From Pedobacter psychrodurus (GTDB taxonomy: Bacteria > Bacteroidota > Bacteroidia > Sphingobacteriales > Sphingobacteriaceae), in contig NZ_SJSO01000005.1 of the NCBI RefSeq assembly GCF_004331735.1, forward strand, positions 310,001 through 374,000: a stretch of 64,000 nt of DNA, written 5' to 3'. This document shows, in pieces, positions 42,700 to 59,969 of the stretch (position 1 is the first letter of the stretch; the number at the start of each line of letters is the position of its first letter). Below the pieces are notes generated by a model. That model saw only the letters and a list, made by a program, of their open reading frames with translations. It did not search any database and was not told the DNA's origin. The translations under genes were made by a program, and so were the position numbers.

Positions 42700-43193
42700 T
42701 TAATAAAAGAGTTGTCAACTTTAATAGCCAGTTTGTAAGAAAGTTGATAACTCTGAAATTCATATTTTATTACTGATAAACACGCTATTGCAAATAATTT
42801 GGGCATGCCCCAAGCTGCGCAAGGGTCGGGCTATTCGTTACAATCTTTTTTGAAGAAAAATCAAAAAAGGATTTCCACTGCTATCCCTCATGCTTAACTT
42901 TTATTGTGCCTTTGTTTCTTAGTGGTTAAAAACATTGGTTCGCGCATGTGATTTGACACCTAAACCCGATGGCACGGATGCCGATTACGCATCATTATTT
43001 TTATAAACAAGTATCGGCAGGAGGAACAGCGGGGCGGAACGAAACCGAAGAACTACTGGCACTGCTTTCCAAAAAAAATACATAAAACTAAAAGCATTTT
43101 AGTTTTAATGGGAAGAAAGAGAAATGGTTCGTGAGGACACGAACCATGGCGATGAAATAAAGTTAGGATGACGATATCCATTGAATTCAATCA
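42700..43193. other. 494-base spacer with two dispersed repeat types
   Basis: No gene seen. Contains the imperfect palindromic element at 42802-42895 and a segment at about 42951-43078 that resembles the decayed repeats in 4650-5242. Confidence 0.55.
42802..42895. repeat. Imperfect palindromic dispersed element
   Basis: Begins GGGCATGCCCC, continues GTCGGGCTATTCGTTACAAT, has a central hairpin CTTTTTTGA/TCAAAAAAG, and ends GGATTTCCACTGCTATCCCT. The two halves are imperfect reverse complements of about 25 bases. The layout matches dispersed palindromic repeats I recall from Flavobacteria and Sphingobacteria; no transposase is nearby. Confidence 0.65.
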
Positions 43194-54941: not shown

Positions 54942-55385
54942 ATGTACAACATCTTAAAATCTGCGCACTCTGGATGGCGCTACATCGTATTAATTCTATT
55001 GGTTATTGCTGTAATCAATGCTTTGTCGGGCTGGTTTGGTAATAAAACTTACACAGAAGGTAACCGCAAGCTGAATGTATTTACACTGATCAGTGCACAC
55101 ATTCAATTGTTGATCGGCCTGGTATTGTATTTTTTGAGCCCCTTAACAAAATTGCCAATGGGCGATGCTATTGGTCGGTACTTTAAGGCCGAGCATACCG
55201 CTATGATGATTATTGCCATCATTTTGATTACGGTAGGTAACGCCAAATCGAAAAAGGTAACAGAAGCTGTAGCAAAACACCGCACCATTGCCGTTTTCTT
55301 TGGATTAGCATTGATCCTGATCATTGTTGCTATTTTGTTGATGACGAAAAGCGTTCCCGGAAGAACATTTTTTGGGGTGTCTTAA
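54942..55385 (+). CDS. Cytochrome b-like small membrane protein
   Basis: 147 residues, four membrane helices, with His at conserved-looking membrane-edge positions (SAHSGWRYI, LISAHIQLL, KAEHTAMMI, AKHRTIAV). Homologues in Bacteroidota are often labelled 'cytochrome B', but no heme-binding evidence is visible beyond these histidines. Monocistronic, followed by minisatellite sequence and the trp leader. Function unknown. Confidence 0.75.
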   Translation: MYNILKSAHSGWRYIVLILLVIAVINALSGWFGNKTYTEGNRKLNVFTLISAHIQLLIGLVLYFLSPLTKLPMGDAIGRYFKAEHTAMMIIAIILITVGNAKSKKVTEAVAKHRTIAVFFGLALILIIVAILLMTKSVPGRTFFGVS

Positions 55386-55499: not shown

Positions 55500-55530
55500 T
55501 TTCCATTTTTCAAAATTCTTTATATTTTTG
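55500..55530 (+). promoter_or_regulatory. trp operon promoter
   Basis: TTTC at 55500-55503 (one mismatch to TTTG), 19-base spacer, TATTTTTG at 55523-55530. Transcription should start about 55536, essentially at the leader-peptide ATG (55537), so the leader is leaderless or nearly so. Confidence 0.6.
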
Positions 55531-55536
55531 TTGCTC

Positions 55537-55614
55537 ATGATCAACAATATACATACATGGCTTTGGCAAAGTAATTCGAACGAATTGCGCTGGCTGCGTA
55601 TGAACAAAATATAG
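55537..55614 (+). CDS. trpL: trp operon leader peptide
   Basis: A 25-residue ORF: starts MINNIHTWLWQSNSN, ends RMNKI-stop, with Trp at positions 8, 10 and 19. Three Trp in 25 residues is far above expectation, and it lies between a -7 box and a strong terminator ahead of trpE. This is the layout of a ribosome-mediated transcription attenuator: scarce charged tRNA-Trp stalls the ribosome at codons 8/10. Too short for a normal ORF search. Not confirmed experimentally here. Confidence 0.85.
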   Translation: MINNIHTWLWQSNSNELRWLRMNKI

Positions 55615-55657
55615 TTTATCAACCTAAACCTTATTAAAGAACCATTAAAGCCCGGCG
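55588..55657 (+). promoter_or_regulatory. Candidate antiterminator pairing
   Basis: CGCTGGCT at 55588-55595 (over the third Trp codon) can pair with the left arm of the terminator (AGCCCGGCG, 55649-55657) apart from one bulge and one G-U pair, excluding the terminator. A ribosome stalled at codons 8 or 10 would leave it free. Confidence 0.55.
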
Positions 55658-55680
55658 TAGAACCACACGCCGGGCTTTTT
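55647..55680 (+). terminator. trp attenuator terminator
   Basis: A 12-bp perfect, GC-rich stem AAAGCCCGGCGT/ACGCCGGGCTTT with an eight-base loop and T run, 32 bases after the leader stop and 62 bases before trpE. Confidence 0.92.
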
Positions 55681-55742
55681 ATTGTTAAAAAATACGAAAA
55701 TGCAAACCTTAAGCCTTATAGCTTACACCATTTACCTTTATC

Positions 55743-57140
55743 ATGTATAAAATTAATACCACTTACAAAAAAATGCTTGCCGATACCACAACACCAGTAA
55801 GCATTTATTTACGCTTACGTGATGTGTATCCCAACAGTATCCTGTTAGAAAGTTCTGATTACCATAGCAGAGAAAACTCGATGAGTTTTGTTTGTGCCGA
55901 TCCTGTAGCTGGAATTATTTTAAAGGGCTCGCGATTGGAGACTTATTTCCCCGATGGGGCTGTAGAGATTACCGAAAGTAAAAACCTGATTGAAGAAATT
56001 ACCGATTTTAAAGATAAATTCAGAGAAACAGAATTACCAGAGATCAAATTTATTTCGAGCGGTTTGTTTGGCTATTTTACCTGGAATGCAGTACAACATT
56101 TTGAAGATATAAAGTTTACTTCTGAAACACCGGAGGGTGAAGAGATTCCAGAAATGCAGTACCACCTGTATCGTTATATTATCGCCATCGATCACTTCAA
56201 AAATGAAATTACCCTTTTCAAAAATACTTTCGAAGGAGAAGAAGAGGGTGGGCTTGAAAAAATGGAATACCTGATCCAGAATAAAAATTACCCTGAATAT
56301 AAATTTCAACTGCGTGGAGAGGAAAGTTCGAACCTAACCGATCAGGGTTTTATGGATTTGGTAGAGAAACTGCAAAAACATATTTACCGTGGAGATGTTT
56401 TTCAGATTGTGCCTTCAAGAGCTTTTAAGCAAGCATTTTCTGGCGATGAATTTAATGTTTACCGTTGCTTGCGTTCGATAAATCCATCACCATACCTGTT
56501 TTATTTTGATTATGGGAACTTTAAATTGTTCGGTTCTTCACCAGAGGCGCAGATTACGATCAAAAACAATTCGGCCAACATTTTTCCAATCGCAGGAACA
56601 TTTAAACGCAGCGGAAACGACATTGAAGACGCTGAACAGGCCCGTAAATTAGAACAGGATCCTAAAGAGAGTGCAGAACATGTAATGCTGGTAGATTTAG
56701 CCAGAAACGATTTAAGCAGGCACTGTAACCGCGTTGAGGTAAAATCTTTTAAAGAAGTTCAGTACTATTCGCATCTGATTCACTTGGTGAGTAAAGTGAG
56801 CGGTCATTTGCAGGAAAACGTAAGTGCTTTTAAAGTAGTTGCCGATACCTACCCGGCAGGTACCCTAAGTGGAGCACCAAAATACAAGGCCATGCAGCTG
56901 ATAGATGAAAACGAAAAATTGGGCAGGAATTTCTATGCTGGTGCAATTGGTTTTATGGGTTTCAACGAAGATTTTAACCATGCCATTATGATCAGGACAT
57001 TTATGAGCAAGAATAACGAACTGCATTACCGTGCAGGTGCAGGCATTGTGGCCGATTCTGTCCCTGAAACCGAAATGCAGGAAGTGAATAATAAAATTGC
57101 AGCGTTGCGTAAAGCAGTGCAAATGGCAGAGGGAATATAG
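55743..57140 (+). CDS. trpE: Anthranilate synthase component I
   Basis: Chorismate to anthranilate, the first step of tryptophan synthesis. 465 residues. Feedback-site LLES at 34-37, then chorismate-binding-domain blocks: DVFQIVPSRAFKQAF, LFGSSPEAQI, PIAGTFKRSG, ESAEHVMLVDLARNDLSRHC, TYPAGTLSGAPK, AGAIGFMGF and YRAGAGIVADSVPETE. LLES argues for TrpE rather than PabB. Controlled by the upstream attenuator; followed by trpG after 52 bases. Confidence 0.97.
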   Translation: MYKINTTYKKMLADTTTPVSIYLRLRDVYPNSILLESSDYHSRENSMSFVCADPVAGIILKGSRLETYFPDGAVEITESKNLIEEITDFKDKFRETELPEIKFISSGLFGYFTWNAVQHFEDIKFTSETPEGEEIPEMQYHLYRYIIAIDHFKNEITLFKNTFEGEEEGGLEKMEYLIQNKNYPEYKFQLRGEESSNLTDQGFMDLVEKLQKHIYRGDVFQIVPSRAFKQAFSGDEFNVYRCLRSINPSPYLFYFDYGNFKLFGSSPEAQITIKNNSANIFPIAGTFKRSGNDIEDAEQARKLEQDPKESAEHVMLVDLARNDLSRHCNRVEVKSFKEVQYYSHLIHLVSKVSGHLQENVSAFKVVADTYPAGTLSGAPKYKAMQLIDENEKLGRNFYAGAIGFMGFNEDFNHAIMIRTFMSKNNELHYRAGAGIVADSVPETEMQEVNNKIAALRKAVQMAEGI

Positions 57141-57192: not shown

Positions 57193-57783
57193 ATGGAAAA
57201 TATAGATAAAAAAGCCGTCTTAGTAATTGATAACTATGATAGCTTTACCTACAACCTAGTGCATTTAATTAACGAGGTAGGTTATGAGGCCGAAGTTTGG
57301 AGAAACGATAAATTCGATCTGGCGGATGTAGAAAAGTACGATAAAATTTTGCTTTCTCCGGGGCCAGGTATTCCTGAAGAGGCTGGGTTGTTATTGGATG
57401 TAATTAGAACGTATGCGCCAACAAAGAGTATTTTTGGGGTATGTTTAGGGCAGCAGGCCATTGCCGAAGTTTTTGGCGGTACTTTACTGAACCTTGGAAG
57501 ACCCATGCATGGGATTGCTACGCCAGTAACGGTTGTAGATGGTGATGAACCTTTGTTCTGGGAGTGTCCACAAACTATAAATGTTGGTCGCTACCACAGT
57601 TGGGTAGTGAGTAAAGATAATTTTCCCTCATGTTTAAAAATTACGGCCAGAGATCATAAGAACGAAATCATGGCGTTAAGACATGAAACATTAGATGTTC
57701 GTGGGGTACAGTTTCATCCTGAAAGTGTGCTAACGGAGTATGGCAAGCAGATGATGGAGAATTGGTTGACGTCGACCCCCTAG
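57193..57783 (+). CDS. trpG: Anthranilate synthase component II (glutamine amidotransferase)
   Basis: 196 residues, class I amidotransferase supplying ammonia to TrpE. Oxyanion and active-site motifs: LSPGPGIPEEAG, catalytic Cys84 in GVCLGQQ, and His175/Glu177 in GVQFHPESVL. RYHSWVV and MHGIATPV are typical of TrpG/PabA; it may also serve PabB. The last codons (TSTP and stop) fall in a CCCCCTAGCCTCCTGAAGGG repeat. Confidence 0.96.
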   Translation: MENIDKKAVLVIDNYDSFTYNLVHLINEVGYEAEVWRNDKFDLADVEKYDKILLSPGPGIPEEAGLLLDVIRTYAPTKSIFGVCLGQQAIAEVFGGTLLNLGRPMHGIATPVTVVDGDEPLFWECPQTINVGRYHSWVVSKDNFPSCLKITARDHKNEIMALRHETLDVRGVQFHPESVLTEYGKQMMENWLTSTP

Positions 57784-57908
57784 CCTCCTGAAGGGGGAAT
57801 TAAAGGCTAGTTGGAAATAGCCAGTTTGAAAAATTAAACTAAAATTAATCTATGCAAAATAATATGAACGATGGAAAGTCAAAGTCCCCTTCAGGGGATT
57901 TAGGGGTG
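57776..57908. repeat. Two copies of a Bacteroidota palindromic repeat in trp coding ends
   Basis: CCCCCTAGCCTCC/TGAAGGGGGAA at about 57775-57800 includes the trpG stop; AAAGTCCCCTTCAGGGGATT then TAGGGGTG at 57881-57908 is in frame inside trpC and encodes SPSGDLG. Both are variants of a CCCC/GGGG palindromic dispersed repeat. Confidence 0.7.
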
Positions 57909-58688
57909 AACATTTTAGATAAAATCGTATTACGTAAAAAGGAAGAAATTGCAGCTGCTAAAGCTTTGGTTTCTATTCAGGATTTAGAAAAATCGGTGCA
58001 TTTTGATAGAACACCTTATTCTTTTAAAGAGTTTTTATTGGCAGAAGACCGTACCGGGATAATTGCAGAGTTTAAGCGCCGTTCGCCATCTAAAGGTTTG
58101 ATTAATGGTGTTGCCGATGTTGCTGATGTAACGCAGGCGTATAATGCAGCAGGTGCATCTGCACTTTCGGTTTTAACTGATGTAGATTTTTTTGGTGGTA
58201 AAACCGACGATATTCTAGCGGCAAGGGCTGCAAACAATATTCCGATCTTAAGAAAAGATTTTATGATCGATGAGTATCAGATCCTGGAAGCAAAAGCCTG
58301 GGGTGCTGATATCATTCTGTTGATTGCCTCAATATTAACACCTCAGCAGATTAACGATTTCGGAAAGTTTGCGAAAGATTTGGGGTTAAATGTGCTGTTA
58401 GAAGTGCATAACCTGGAAGAACTGGAGCGAAGCATCTGTCCGAATCTGGATGCCATTGGTGTAAACAACAGAAACCTGTCCGATTTTACGGTAGATATCC
58501 AAACCTCGTTTGATTTGGTGAATAAAATCCCAAATGAATTTCTGAAAATCTCAGAAAGTGCGATCAGTAATCCTCAGACCATTGCAGCATTAAAAGCCGC
58601 AGGTTTTAACGGTTTTTTGATTGGCGAGAATTTTATGAAAACGGATAACCCAGGTGTTGCCATAAAGGAATTTGTAGCGCAGATATAG
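57852..58688 (+). CDS. trpC: Indole-3-glycerol-phosphate synthase
   Basis: 278 residues, TIM barrel converting CdRP to indoleglycerol phosphate. Seen: IIAEFKRRSPSKG, ALSVLTDVDFFGG, ILRKDFMIDEYQILEAKAWG, VNNRNLSDFTVD and SESAISNPQTI. The N-terminal extension contains the in-frame repeat-encoded KSPSGDLGVN before the conserved ILDKIVLRKKEEI. A start at 57852 is annotated; the native start may have been near 57909. trpD and trpF are not next to it. Confidence 0.96.
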   Translation: MQNNMNDGKSKSPSGDLGVNILDKIVLRKKEEIAAAKALVSIQDLEKSVHFDRTPYSFKEFLLAEDRTGIIAEFKRRSPSKGLINGVADVADVTQAYNAAGASALSVLTDVDFFGGKTDDILAARAANNIPILRKDFMIDEYQILEAKAWGADIILLIASILTPQQINDFGKFAKDLGLNVLLEVHNLEELERSICPNLDAIGVNNRNLSDFTVDIQTSFDLVNKIPNEFLKISESAISNPQTIAALKAAGFNGFLIGENFMKTDNPGVAIKEFVAQI

Positions 58689-58696
58689 TTCTATTT

Positions 58697-58729
58697 AAAC
58701 CTCGCAGGTTTTTAAAACCTGCGAGGTTT
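58697..58729. repeat. Perfect 16-bp palindromic element (AACCTCGCAGG type)
   Basis: AAACCTCGCAGGTTTT and AAAACCTGCGAGGTTT, perfect complements with a one-base centre, between trpC and hflX. Second copy at 60000-60032. Could fold as a bidirectional terminator-like hairpin. Confidence 0.85.
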
Positions 58730-58760
58730 GAACAAAAGATTTACACGTTTGCAAATTTCG

Positions 58761-58768
58761 TATATTTG
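58761..58768 (+). promoter_or_regulatory. -7 box TATATTTG before hflX
   Basis: Exact TAnnTTTG match ten bases before the hflX ATG at 58779, separating hflX from trp transcription. TTTA 17 bases upstream is a weak -33. Confidence 0.45.
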
Positions 58769-58778
58769 CCTTAATTAC

Positions 58779-59969
58779 ATGGGAAAACAAAAAACATACG
58801 ATACTGCCGTTGTGCAGGAGCGGGCAATTTTAGTTGGGGTAGTTACTCCAGGCGAAAAAGAAGCCCAAACAAAAGAATATTTAGATGAGTTGGCCTTTTT
58901 GGTAGATACAGCTGGAGGGAAGGTAGAAAAGGTTTTTACACAGAAGATGCTTAAACCAGAGCGTGCTACTTTTGTGGGTACGGGAAAACTGGAAGAGATT
59001 AAAGCTTATGTAAAATCGGAAGAAATTGATGTGGTGGTTTTCGACGATGAATTATCGCCATCGCAACTACGCAATATCGATCGTGAGCTTGGCGTTAAGG
59101 TTTTAGATAGAAGCAATCTGATCCTGGATATTTTTGCTAACAGGGCCCAAACTGCACAGGCAAAAACACAGGTAGAACTGGCACAATTGCAATATGTTTT
59201 ACCACGCCTAACCGGTATGTGGACCCACTTAGAGCGCCAGAAAGGTGGTATCGGGATGCGTGGTCCAGGTGAAACACAGATTGAAAGTGATAGACGTATT
59301 ATTTTAAACAAAATCTCTTTGCTAAAAGAGCGTTTAAGAAATATAGATCGGCAGAACGAAACGCAGCGTAAAAACCGTGGCCAGTTGATTCGGGTAGCTT
59401 TGGTTGGCTATACCAACGTTGGTAAATCTACCATCATGAATATGCTGTCAAAATCGGAAGTATTTGCAGAAAATAAATTGTTTGCAACTTTAGATACGAC
59501 CGTGCGTAAGGTGGTGATTGAAAATTTACCTTTTCTGCTTTCTGATACTGTTGGATTTATCCGCAAACTACCTCACCATTTGGTAGAATGTTTTAAATCT
59601 ACTCTTGATGAAGTACGCGAAGCTGATTTACTGATTCATGTGGTTGATGTTTCGCACCCTAACTTCGAAGATCAGATTAATACGGTTAACGAAACGTTGA
59701 AAGATATCGGAGCCATTGATAAGGACATGATTTTAGTTTTTAATAAAATTGATGCTTATGTTTCGCCAGAAGTGGATGATGAAGAGGATGACGGCAAGCT
59801 TACTTTAGAAGACTTTAAGAAAAGCTGGATGAGCCACGATAAGGTACCGGTTTTGTTTATATCGGCTACCGAGAAAGAGAACTTAGAAGAGTTTAAAACA
59901 TTGTTGTACGATAAGGTTAAAGCTGCACATGTGGCGAGATACCCGTATGATAGTAATTTGTTATATTAG
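58779..59969 (+). CDS. hflX: GTPase HflX
   Basis: 396 residues from the ATG at 58779; the frame is open back to a TTG at 58728 inside the palindromic repeat, which is rejected. Ribosome-associated GTPase that splits stalled ribosomes. N-terminal HflX domain (ATFVGTGKLEEI, VVFDDELSPSQLRN, LDRSNLILDIFANRA), then RGPGETQIESDRR, G1 GYTNVGKST, TLDTTVR, DTVGFIRKLPHHL, NKID. Own -7 box upstream. Confidence 0.96.
   Translation: MGKQKTYDTAVVQERAILVGVVTPGEKEAQTKEYLDELAFLVDTAGGKVEKVFTQKMLKPERATFVGTGKLEEIKAYVKSEEIDVVVFDDELSPSQLRNIDRELGVKVLDRSNLILDIFANRAQTAQAKTQVELAQLQYVLPRLTGMWTHLERQKGGIGMRGPGETQIESDRRIILNKISLLKERLRNIDRQNETQRKNRGQLIRVALVGYTNVGKSTIMNMLSKSEVFAENKLFATLDTTVRKVVIENLPFLLSDTVGFIRKLPHHLVECFKSTLDEVREADLLIHVVDVSHPNFEDQINTVNETLKDIGAIDKDMILVFNKIDAYVSPEVDDEEDDGKLTLEDFKKSWMSHDKVPVLFISATEKENLEEFKTLLYDKVKAAHVARYPYDSNLLY

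Follow-up and report, generated by a model that had tools for sequence, protein, structure and literature searches.

Attenuators of the E. coli type combine paired Trp codons, a protector, an antiterminator and a terminator ahead of trpE. The same arrangement, with its likeness to the enterobacterial trpL (RF00513), is found before trpE in the DNA analyzed here, a stretch of 64,000 nucleotides from Pedobacter psychrodurus (contig NZ_SJSO01000005.1), hereafter the window; positions are those of the window and lie on the + strand unless stated otherwise. Unlike enterobacterial trpL, the leader in the window is predicted to have no 5' UTR carrying a ribosome-binding site; moreover, its score of 16.6 bits with the RF00513 Trp_leader model does not reach the threshold of 41.

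In Bacteroidota a leader RNA located 5' of trp genes is represented by RF01692 (Bacteroid-trp, 'Bacteroidete tryptophan peptide leader RNA'), which is listed in Weinberg 2010 (PMC2864571). The leader in the window has the position expected for this family, upstream of trp biosynthesis genes in a member of the Bacteroidota, and in class members the model matches the same trpE leaders as our comparison. The main difference is that the RNA of the window's family goes unrecognized by the model (threshold 49 bits), which gave no match in the window at the gathering threshold or at E <=10, and matched 0 of 20 other stretches of that family. Among class stretches it matched 14 of 40 (12/20 and 2/20), and with strict filters it was over the cut-off in 5 of 149 class genomes. 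The spacer between promoter box and ATG measured 16-18 nt in nine of the 14 matched leaders and 4-5 nt in the other five, so short-spaced leaders exist inside RF01692 too. Attenuation by Trp leaders is therefore not new to the Bacteroidota, being represented by RF01692, and the window's family is a part missed by the model; what is new is a predicted leaderless variant, which in the phylum as a whole alternates with leaders of longer spacing.

Leaderless attenuators have been described in other lineages. The trpL of Sinorhizobium meliloti (rnTrpL) is a Trp attenuator RNA beginning at the leader-peptide ATG, although it encodes a 14-aa peptide and belongs to a separate, alphaproteobacterial lineage (PMC7298713). 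Leaderless short ORFs have also been reported as amino-acid attenuators in Streptomyces lividans (PMC8079986) and, in the form of polycysteine sORFs, in mycobacteria (reviewed in PMC9031893); these organisms are Actinobacteria, and the leaderless cases reported there concern Leu, Thr, Met and Cys. Within the phylum, 'strong clues' of leader-peptide attenuation at amino-acid operons have been reported for Flavobacterium psychrophilum, whereas the main text of that report does not name trp or tryptophan and apparently ties its leaderless mRNAs to no leader peptide (PMC9723704). Our searches of the open-licence PMC literature returned no report of leaderless leader peptides in Bacteroidota. Thus the combination of attenuation with a leaderless mRNA, which the initial annotation of this DNA had called unusual, appears new for Bacteroidota according to these searches, but Sinorhizobium, Streptomyces and mycobacteria provide earlier examples of leaderless attenuators.

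The genes downstream of the leader are trpE (anthranilate synthase component I, 55743-57140), trpG (glutamine amidotransferase, 57193-57783) and trpC (indole-3-glycerol phosphate synthase, 57852-58688). The best NCBIfam family for the first is trpE_most (TIGR00564, E 7.4e-124), with 414.2 bits, below the curated cut-off of 517.7; trpG (TIGR00566, 184.5 bits) and trpC (NF001377, 294.7 bits) score above their cut-offs. In its best segment the TrpE of the window is a 100% match to that of Pedobacter strains L003, L004 and L079. The trpD gene is absent from the trpEGC cluster and was found elsewhere in the genome (296.3 bits, above cut-off), with a trpF-like ORF on its 3' side, whose best score of 159 bits does not attain the cut-off of 215, and then trpB. 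An HflX GTPase gene (hflX, 58728-59969) lies close 3' of trpC in the same direction, and a match to the Flavo-1 RNA (RF01705, 70.5 bits) is present at 42820-42898 on the - strand.

Reading of the sequence and a script agreed on a leader ORF of 25 codons (MINNIHTWLWQSNSNELRWLRMNKI, 55537-55614), with its ATG at 55537-55539, its TAG stop at 55612-55614 and Trp at codons 8 (55558-55560), 10 (55564-55566) and 19 (55591-55593), exactly as initially annotated. W8 and W10 (TGG CTT TGG, 55558-55566), which we consider the regulatory codons, are invariant in a 26-row Pedobacter alignment (A1). The GC-rich terminator of 12 bp claimed to precede trpE was likewise confirmed: its arms (55647-55658 and 55667-55678) form 12 pairs, 8 of them G-C, around an 8-nt loop at -22.4 kcal/mol, then comes TTTTTATTGTT, and the whole element with its T-rich tail spans 55647-55686. 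As for the claimed -33/-7 promoter, the -7 part stood, with a TAnnTTTG box (TATTTTTG, 55523-55530) six nt 5' of the ATG, but the -33 element (TTTCC, 55500-55504) is weak in the window; the corresponding site is TTTTG in some relatives, e.g. L007, L009 and L010. AC-rich stretches between the leader stop and the terminator (55614-55666), as well as the terminator loop (AGAACCAC), are near-invariant among 26 Pedobacter leaders. We consider it very likely that the 25-codon leader and the terminator before trpEGC constitute a ribosome-mediated Trp attenuator, with an mRNA likely starting 0-2 nt before the AUG.

Relatives were compared, as the initial annotation had proposed, using 218 trpE upstream regions: 80 from named relatives (the best 80 of at least 586), 56 further ones from the family (29 + 7 loci, plus 20 picked among the matches listed, which cover part of 284 matching genomes), 62 from the class (the class matches listed, two of which, L137 and L150, carry that label while belonging to the same phylum only) and 20 from elsewhere in the phylum (chosen so that each family contributed one to three). 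Named and further family regions overlap, and deduplication applies only to the counts called distinct below. A leader was defined as a short ORF with two Trp codons within three positions. Such Trp-cluster leaders precede trpE in 210 of the 218 regions (78/80 named, 55/56 family, 60/62 class and 17/20 phylum); counting ATG starts only, the values were 75/77, 54/56, 60/62 and 17/20, against means of 1.0, 0.8, 1.6 and 0.8 (1-4%) in shuffled sequences. The Trp cluster is kept while the peptide differs, appearing as WLW, WQW, WW or WWW, and in the window's family the first Trp is codon 8-13 of a chosen ORF of 15-27 codons. In two regions of one family (f16; L201 and L218) a spread TWAWFWF motif takes the place of WWW, mixing Trp and Phe codons. 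A terminator-like hairpin with a U tract accompanies 207 of the 210 leaders, in 203 of them at -10 kcal/mol or below.

Counterexamples of the kind that the initial annotation would take as refuting its reading are rare, with 8 of 218 regions having no Trp-cluster leader and 3 of the other 210 no terminator. Among the eight, the upstream DNA of L073 comprises just 8 nt, and L096 was wrongly cut, its contig ending early; L010, seemingly from the same genome, has a leader. In L068 there are two Trp codons far apart and a terminator-like tail. The DNA before trpE in L176 reads as the end of trpB, and in this genome, that of a class member, a Trp leader matching RF01692 (G532:C3:788912-789049) was observed ~1.3 kb 5' of trpE, before the apparent trpB. 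The remaining regions without a leader are L150, L203, L208 and L215. This conservation bears on the reading in which the terminator just ends an upstream transcript and the leader ORF arose by chance: an ORF in the same direction (54942-55385) does stop 262 bases before the terminator, but such an arrangement is refuted by the presence of leader and terminator together in 207 of the 218 regions, and we regard it as exceedingly improbable.

RNA folding gave a protector (1:2), an antiterminator (2:3) and a terminator (3:4). Region 1 (55552-55577) is the 5' half of the protector helix, its partner being 55582-55602; region 2 (TTGCGCTGGCT, 55585-55595), obtained in masked folds, is the 5' arm of the antiterminator and contains codon W19; region 3 (55649-55660), seen in both fold and alignment, is the antiterminator 3' arm and overlaps the 5' arm of the terminator. 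For masked folding the RNA was taken as made to the end of region 3, with its 5' part hidden as by a stalled ribosome, the ribosome footprint having its generally known size. The antiterminator formed if the RNA was free from 55571 (stall at W8) or 55577 (stall at W10), at -18.6 and -17.1 kcal/mol respectively, and did not form in masked folds with the RNA free from 55604 (stall at W19) or 55626 (stop). Counting against the model, the terminator was the lowest-energy structure of the complete RNA under every mask; antitermination therefore requires that region 2 find its partner earlier. Here, as in other attenuators, the outcome would depend on the order of synthesis.

Following this model, RNA polymerase would initiate at 55535-55537, and a ribosome would load directly on, or near, the 5'-terminal AUG, with neither a Shine-Dalgarno sequence nor an A-rich upstream context. 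Scarcity of charged Trp-tRNA would stall the ribosome at W8/W10 (55558-55566), leaving region 2 free to pair with region 3 before the second arm of the terminator exists; the terminator would thus be blocked and trpEGC transcribed. With plentiful Trp the ribosome would reach the stop codon and hide region 2, allowing the 12-bp terminator to form, and termination would also be expected in an untranslated leader, through pairing of region 1 with region 2. W19, lying within region 2, would have no positive role.

Pairing was further assessed in the 26-row Pedobacter alignment. The antiterminator had 99.3% of cells paired, with one pair showing changes on both sides, and the terminator 100%, with two such pairs, whereas sliding the partners as a control gave 35-45% and 16-57% of cells paired, respectively. 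Shuffles matched the number of pairs with both-side changes in 169 of 500 cases for 2:3 and 32 of 500 for 3:4; changed-cell counts of both helices were matched by 0 of 500. For the protector, 99.0% of cells were paired and no covariation was detected in this alignment. L022, L024 and L071 carry a linked change in regions 2 (to A), 3 (to T) and 4 (to A), which in region 2 gives a synonymous Ala codon and leaves the peptide unchanged; this three-strand substitution supports, at the level of sequence, both the 2:3 and 3:4 pairings, although it may represent a single event, these being related species. On the other side, L028 and L051 have one broken antiterminator pair each. The antiterminator duplex was better than 95 or more of 100 mononucleotide shuffles in 39 of 65 leaders of the named group and in 27 of 29 of the further family group; beyond the family, this level was attained by no more than 18 of 57 leaders in the class and 6 of 17 in the phylum, some of whose antiterminators look, individually, convincing by eye.

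The locus presents a Trp-cluster ORF, an intrinsic terminator and a predicted alternative antiterminator freed by stalling. The proposal that this Bacteroidota operon is attenuated in the enterobacterial manner is well supported by comparison of relatives, through the conserved leader peptide (210/218), the terminator (207/210) and, within the family, the antiterminator pairing; we consider it almost certain that the device is a real and conserved Trp attenuator. Since the structural elements alone could serve different sensors, a Trp-sensing RNA or protein (a T-box, a riboswitch or an RNA-binding protein) might control the terminator, with the short ORF left untranslated, and the strong conservation of the AC-rich stretches between leader stop and terminator would agree with such a sensor. 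Nevertheless, neither a T-box nor any other Rfam family was detected at threshold at this site, T-box was not among the 17 weak matches (E <=10), and Trp codons are kept in frame after the ATG throughout the phylum while the flanking residues change, making control of this kind very unlikely.

Although all three annotated Trp codons are present, the third is not conserved. Seven of the 106 distinct leaders in the family have W19, or 7 among the 41 that show the WLW motif; another seven carry a later Trp, at different places and in a different sequence. The window's clade is without two bases that are present in other Pedobacter leaders, for which reason TTGCGCTGGCTGCGTA is read as LRWLR and not as CAGCV-stop; in region 2, conservation holds for the DNA but not for the frame in which it is read. 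A regulatory role of Trp-19 was considered and rejected, given its place inside region 2, where a stalled ribosome would mask the antiterminator, and its rarity among the distinct leaders. Because a stall at W19 would favor termination, this codon does not act as a sensing codon in the attenuation model; judging from these alignments, it is an incidental feature and no conserved part of the device.

Regarding the start of the mRNA, the TAnnTTTG (sigma-A) box of F. psychrophilum lies at -12 to -5 (PMC9723704), and probable promoters of F. johnsoniae have 4 or 5 nt from box to start (PMC6847099). On the basis of the F. johnsoniae spacing, transcription is predicted to start at 55535-55537, that is, at 55535-55536 by spacing or at the A of the ATG; with the six-nt spacer of the window, the 5' UTR is predicted to measure 1-2 nt or to be absent. 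Among distinct leaders, a box 3-8 nt 5' of an in-frame ATG, which by the published spacing predicts a 5' UTR of 0-4 nt, was found in 86 of the 104 from the family (shuffled mean 1.15), 20 of the 60 from the class (1.0) and 2 of the 17 from the phylum (0.1). In the family, without deduplication, 14 of 133 leaders have no exact TAnnTTTG before the in-frame ATG and six have it at 9-19 nt. The leaderless mRNA proposed initially is thus upheld as a prediction from spacing; that the attenuator mRNA is leaderless seems to us very probable.

The attenuator could instead be real but leadered, its transcripts starting farther upstream and the TAnnTTTG six bases from the ATG not being the relevant promoter. 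The majority of Bacteroidota mRNAs carry leaders, and those below 10 nt are uncommon in the species studied, which counts against a leaderless start: the reported shares are ~3.7% below 10 nt for B. thetaiotaomicron, 5.5% of leaderless mRNAs for F. psychrophilum (PMC9723704) and, for F. johnsoniae (PMC6847099), no more than 13% with a leader of up to 10 nt. Many class leaders, moreover, have spacers of 16-20 nt; spacings in the class are two-peaked, with 20 of 60 distinct leaders at 4-8 nt and 23 at 16-20 nt, the others being 3 at 10 nt, 3 farther away and 11 without a box. Family f4 contains both short- and long-spaced forms, and its genus g29, by inference probably Flavobacterium, is long in 16 of 17. 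However, among 37 window ORFs of at least 200 aa used as controls, the box occurs no more than 150 nt away in 16, including single cases at 6 nt and 10 nt, so that a spacing of 8 nt or less, common in the family, is seen in 1 of 37. Base composition differs as well: spacers of up to 8 nt contain 18% A in their last 6 bases (93 distinct leaders) against 67% in the last 10 bases of 12-21 nt spacers (27 distinct leaders). The A-rich long spacers fit the finding for F. johnsoniae that adenines upstream promote initiation (PMC6847099), and the spacer in the window does not have this A-rich context. A leadered attenuator consequently appears unlikely, and we retain a leaderless start as the preferred reading.

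Other leaders of the same genome also bear on this point, as those of trpD and ilvD have spacers of 12 and 15 nt, which favors a leadered form and indicates that the leaderless form is no general habit of the leaders of this genome. The second Trp leader, MIIKNLNNNWWWHNEIR, lies ahead of trpD (G000:C3:4662-4713, - strand; L311); it has its own terminator (-13.8 kcal/mol), a possible antiterminator and a box with one mismatch (AATATTTG) 12 nt 5' of the ATG, for a predicted UTR of 7-8 nt, itself a short one. A WWW leader occupies the trpD position in 6 of 6 genomes inspected, although it is not longer-spaced everywhere, since the box of L315 (CATATTTG) is just 5 nt from the ATG. The leader MNINTNIISNLIIVISQKRGGNRCV ahead of ilvD (L270), likely an Ile/Val/Leu attenuator, shows a GC-rich terminator (-16.7 kcal/mol) and a box (TATGTTTG) 15 nt 5' of its ATG. 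A His-rich leader, MNLTLNHHLHLHHRR, was observed at hisG (L258) and recurs with small changes in 10 of 11 hisG loci scanned (13 fetched); it has only a weak hairpin and U tract, so its mechanism may differ. In another family, a short ORF with a run of Phe codons (MNLNKTYYFFFYFFAALLGHRRGSLM), possibly a Phe leader, precedes a prephenate dehydratase gene (L310, G600).

In the genome of the window, no exact TAnnTTTG at 3-9 nt from an ATG together with a terminator was found near hisG, ilvD, homoserine dehydrogenase, prephenate dehydratase or trpB, and a scan for codon patterns gave no leader before pheA or before the second gene for homoserine dehydrogenase; for the fused aspartokinase-homoserine dehydrogenase, the leader scan covered stretches that end short of the gene start. 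A search of this genome for the TTTG-ATG-TGG pattern was not discriminating (230 and 191 matches versus 223 and 158 in the reversed control).

On balance, we favor with some confidence the view that Bacteroidota have a class of leaderless Trp attenuators, in which the peptide would be read from the mRNA 5' end, the first ribosome, in a phylum that does not use Shine-Dalgarno initiation, loading as the AUG emerges and thus being coupled to RNA polymerase from the outset. Switches between 3-8 nt, A-poor forms and leadered, A-rich forms of 16-20 nt would have occurred repeatedly in the phylum, and a single Pedobacter genome would combine a leaderless trpEGC leader with a 12-nt trpD leader. The existing Rfam model covers only part of the Trp attenuators of the phylum. 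Leaders so short make up some 4-13% of mapped Bacteroidota mRNAs, varying with species and definition; among organisms that lack Shine-Dalgarno sequences, the trpE leader would provide a conserved natural example of predicted leaderless initiation that is easy to assay and is placed within a regulatory device in which timing is critical. As start spacings differ between attenuators of one genome, whether the mode of starting affects transcription-translation coupling could be tested directly.
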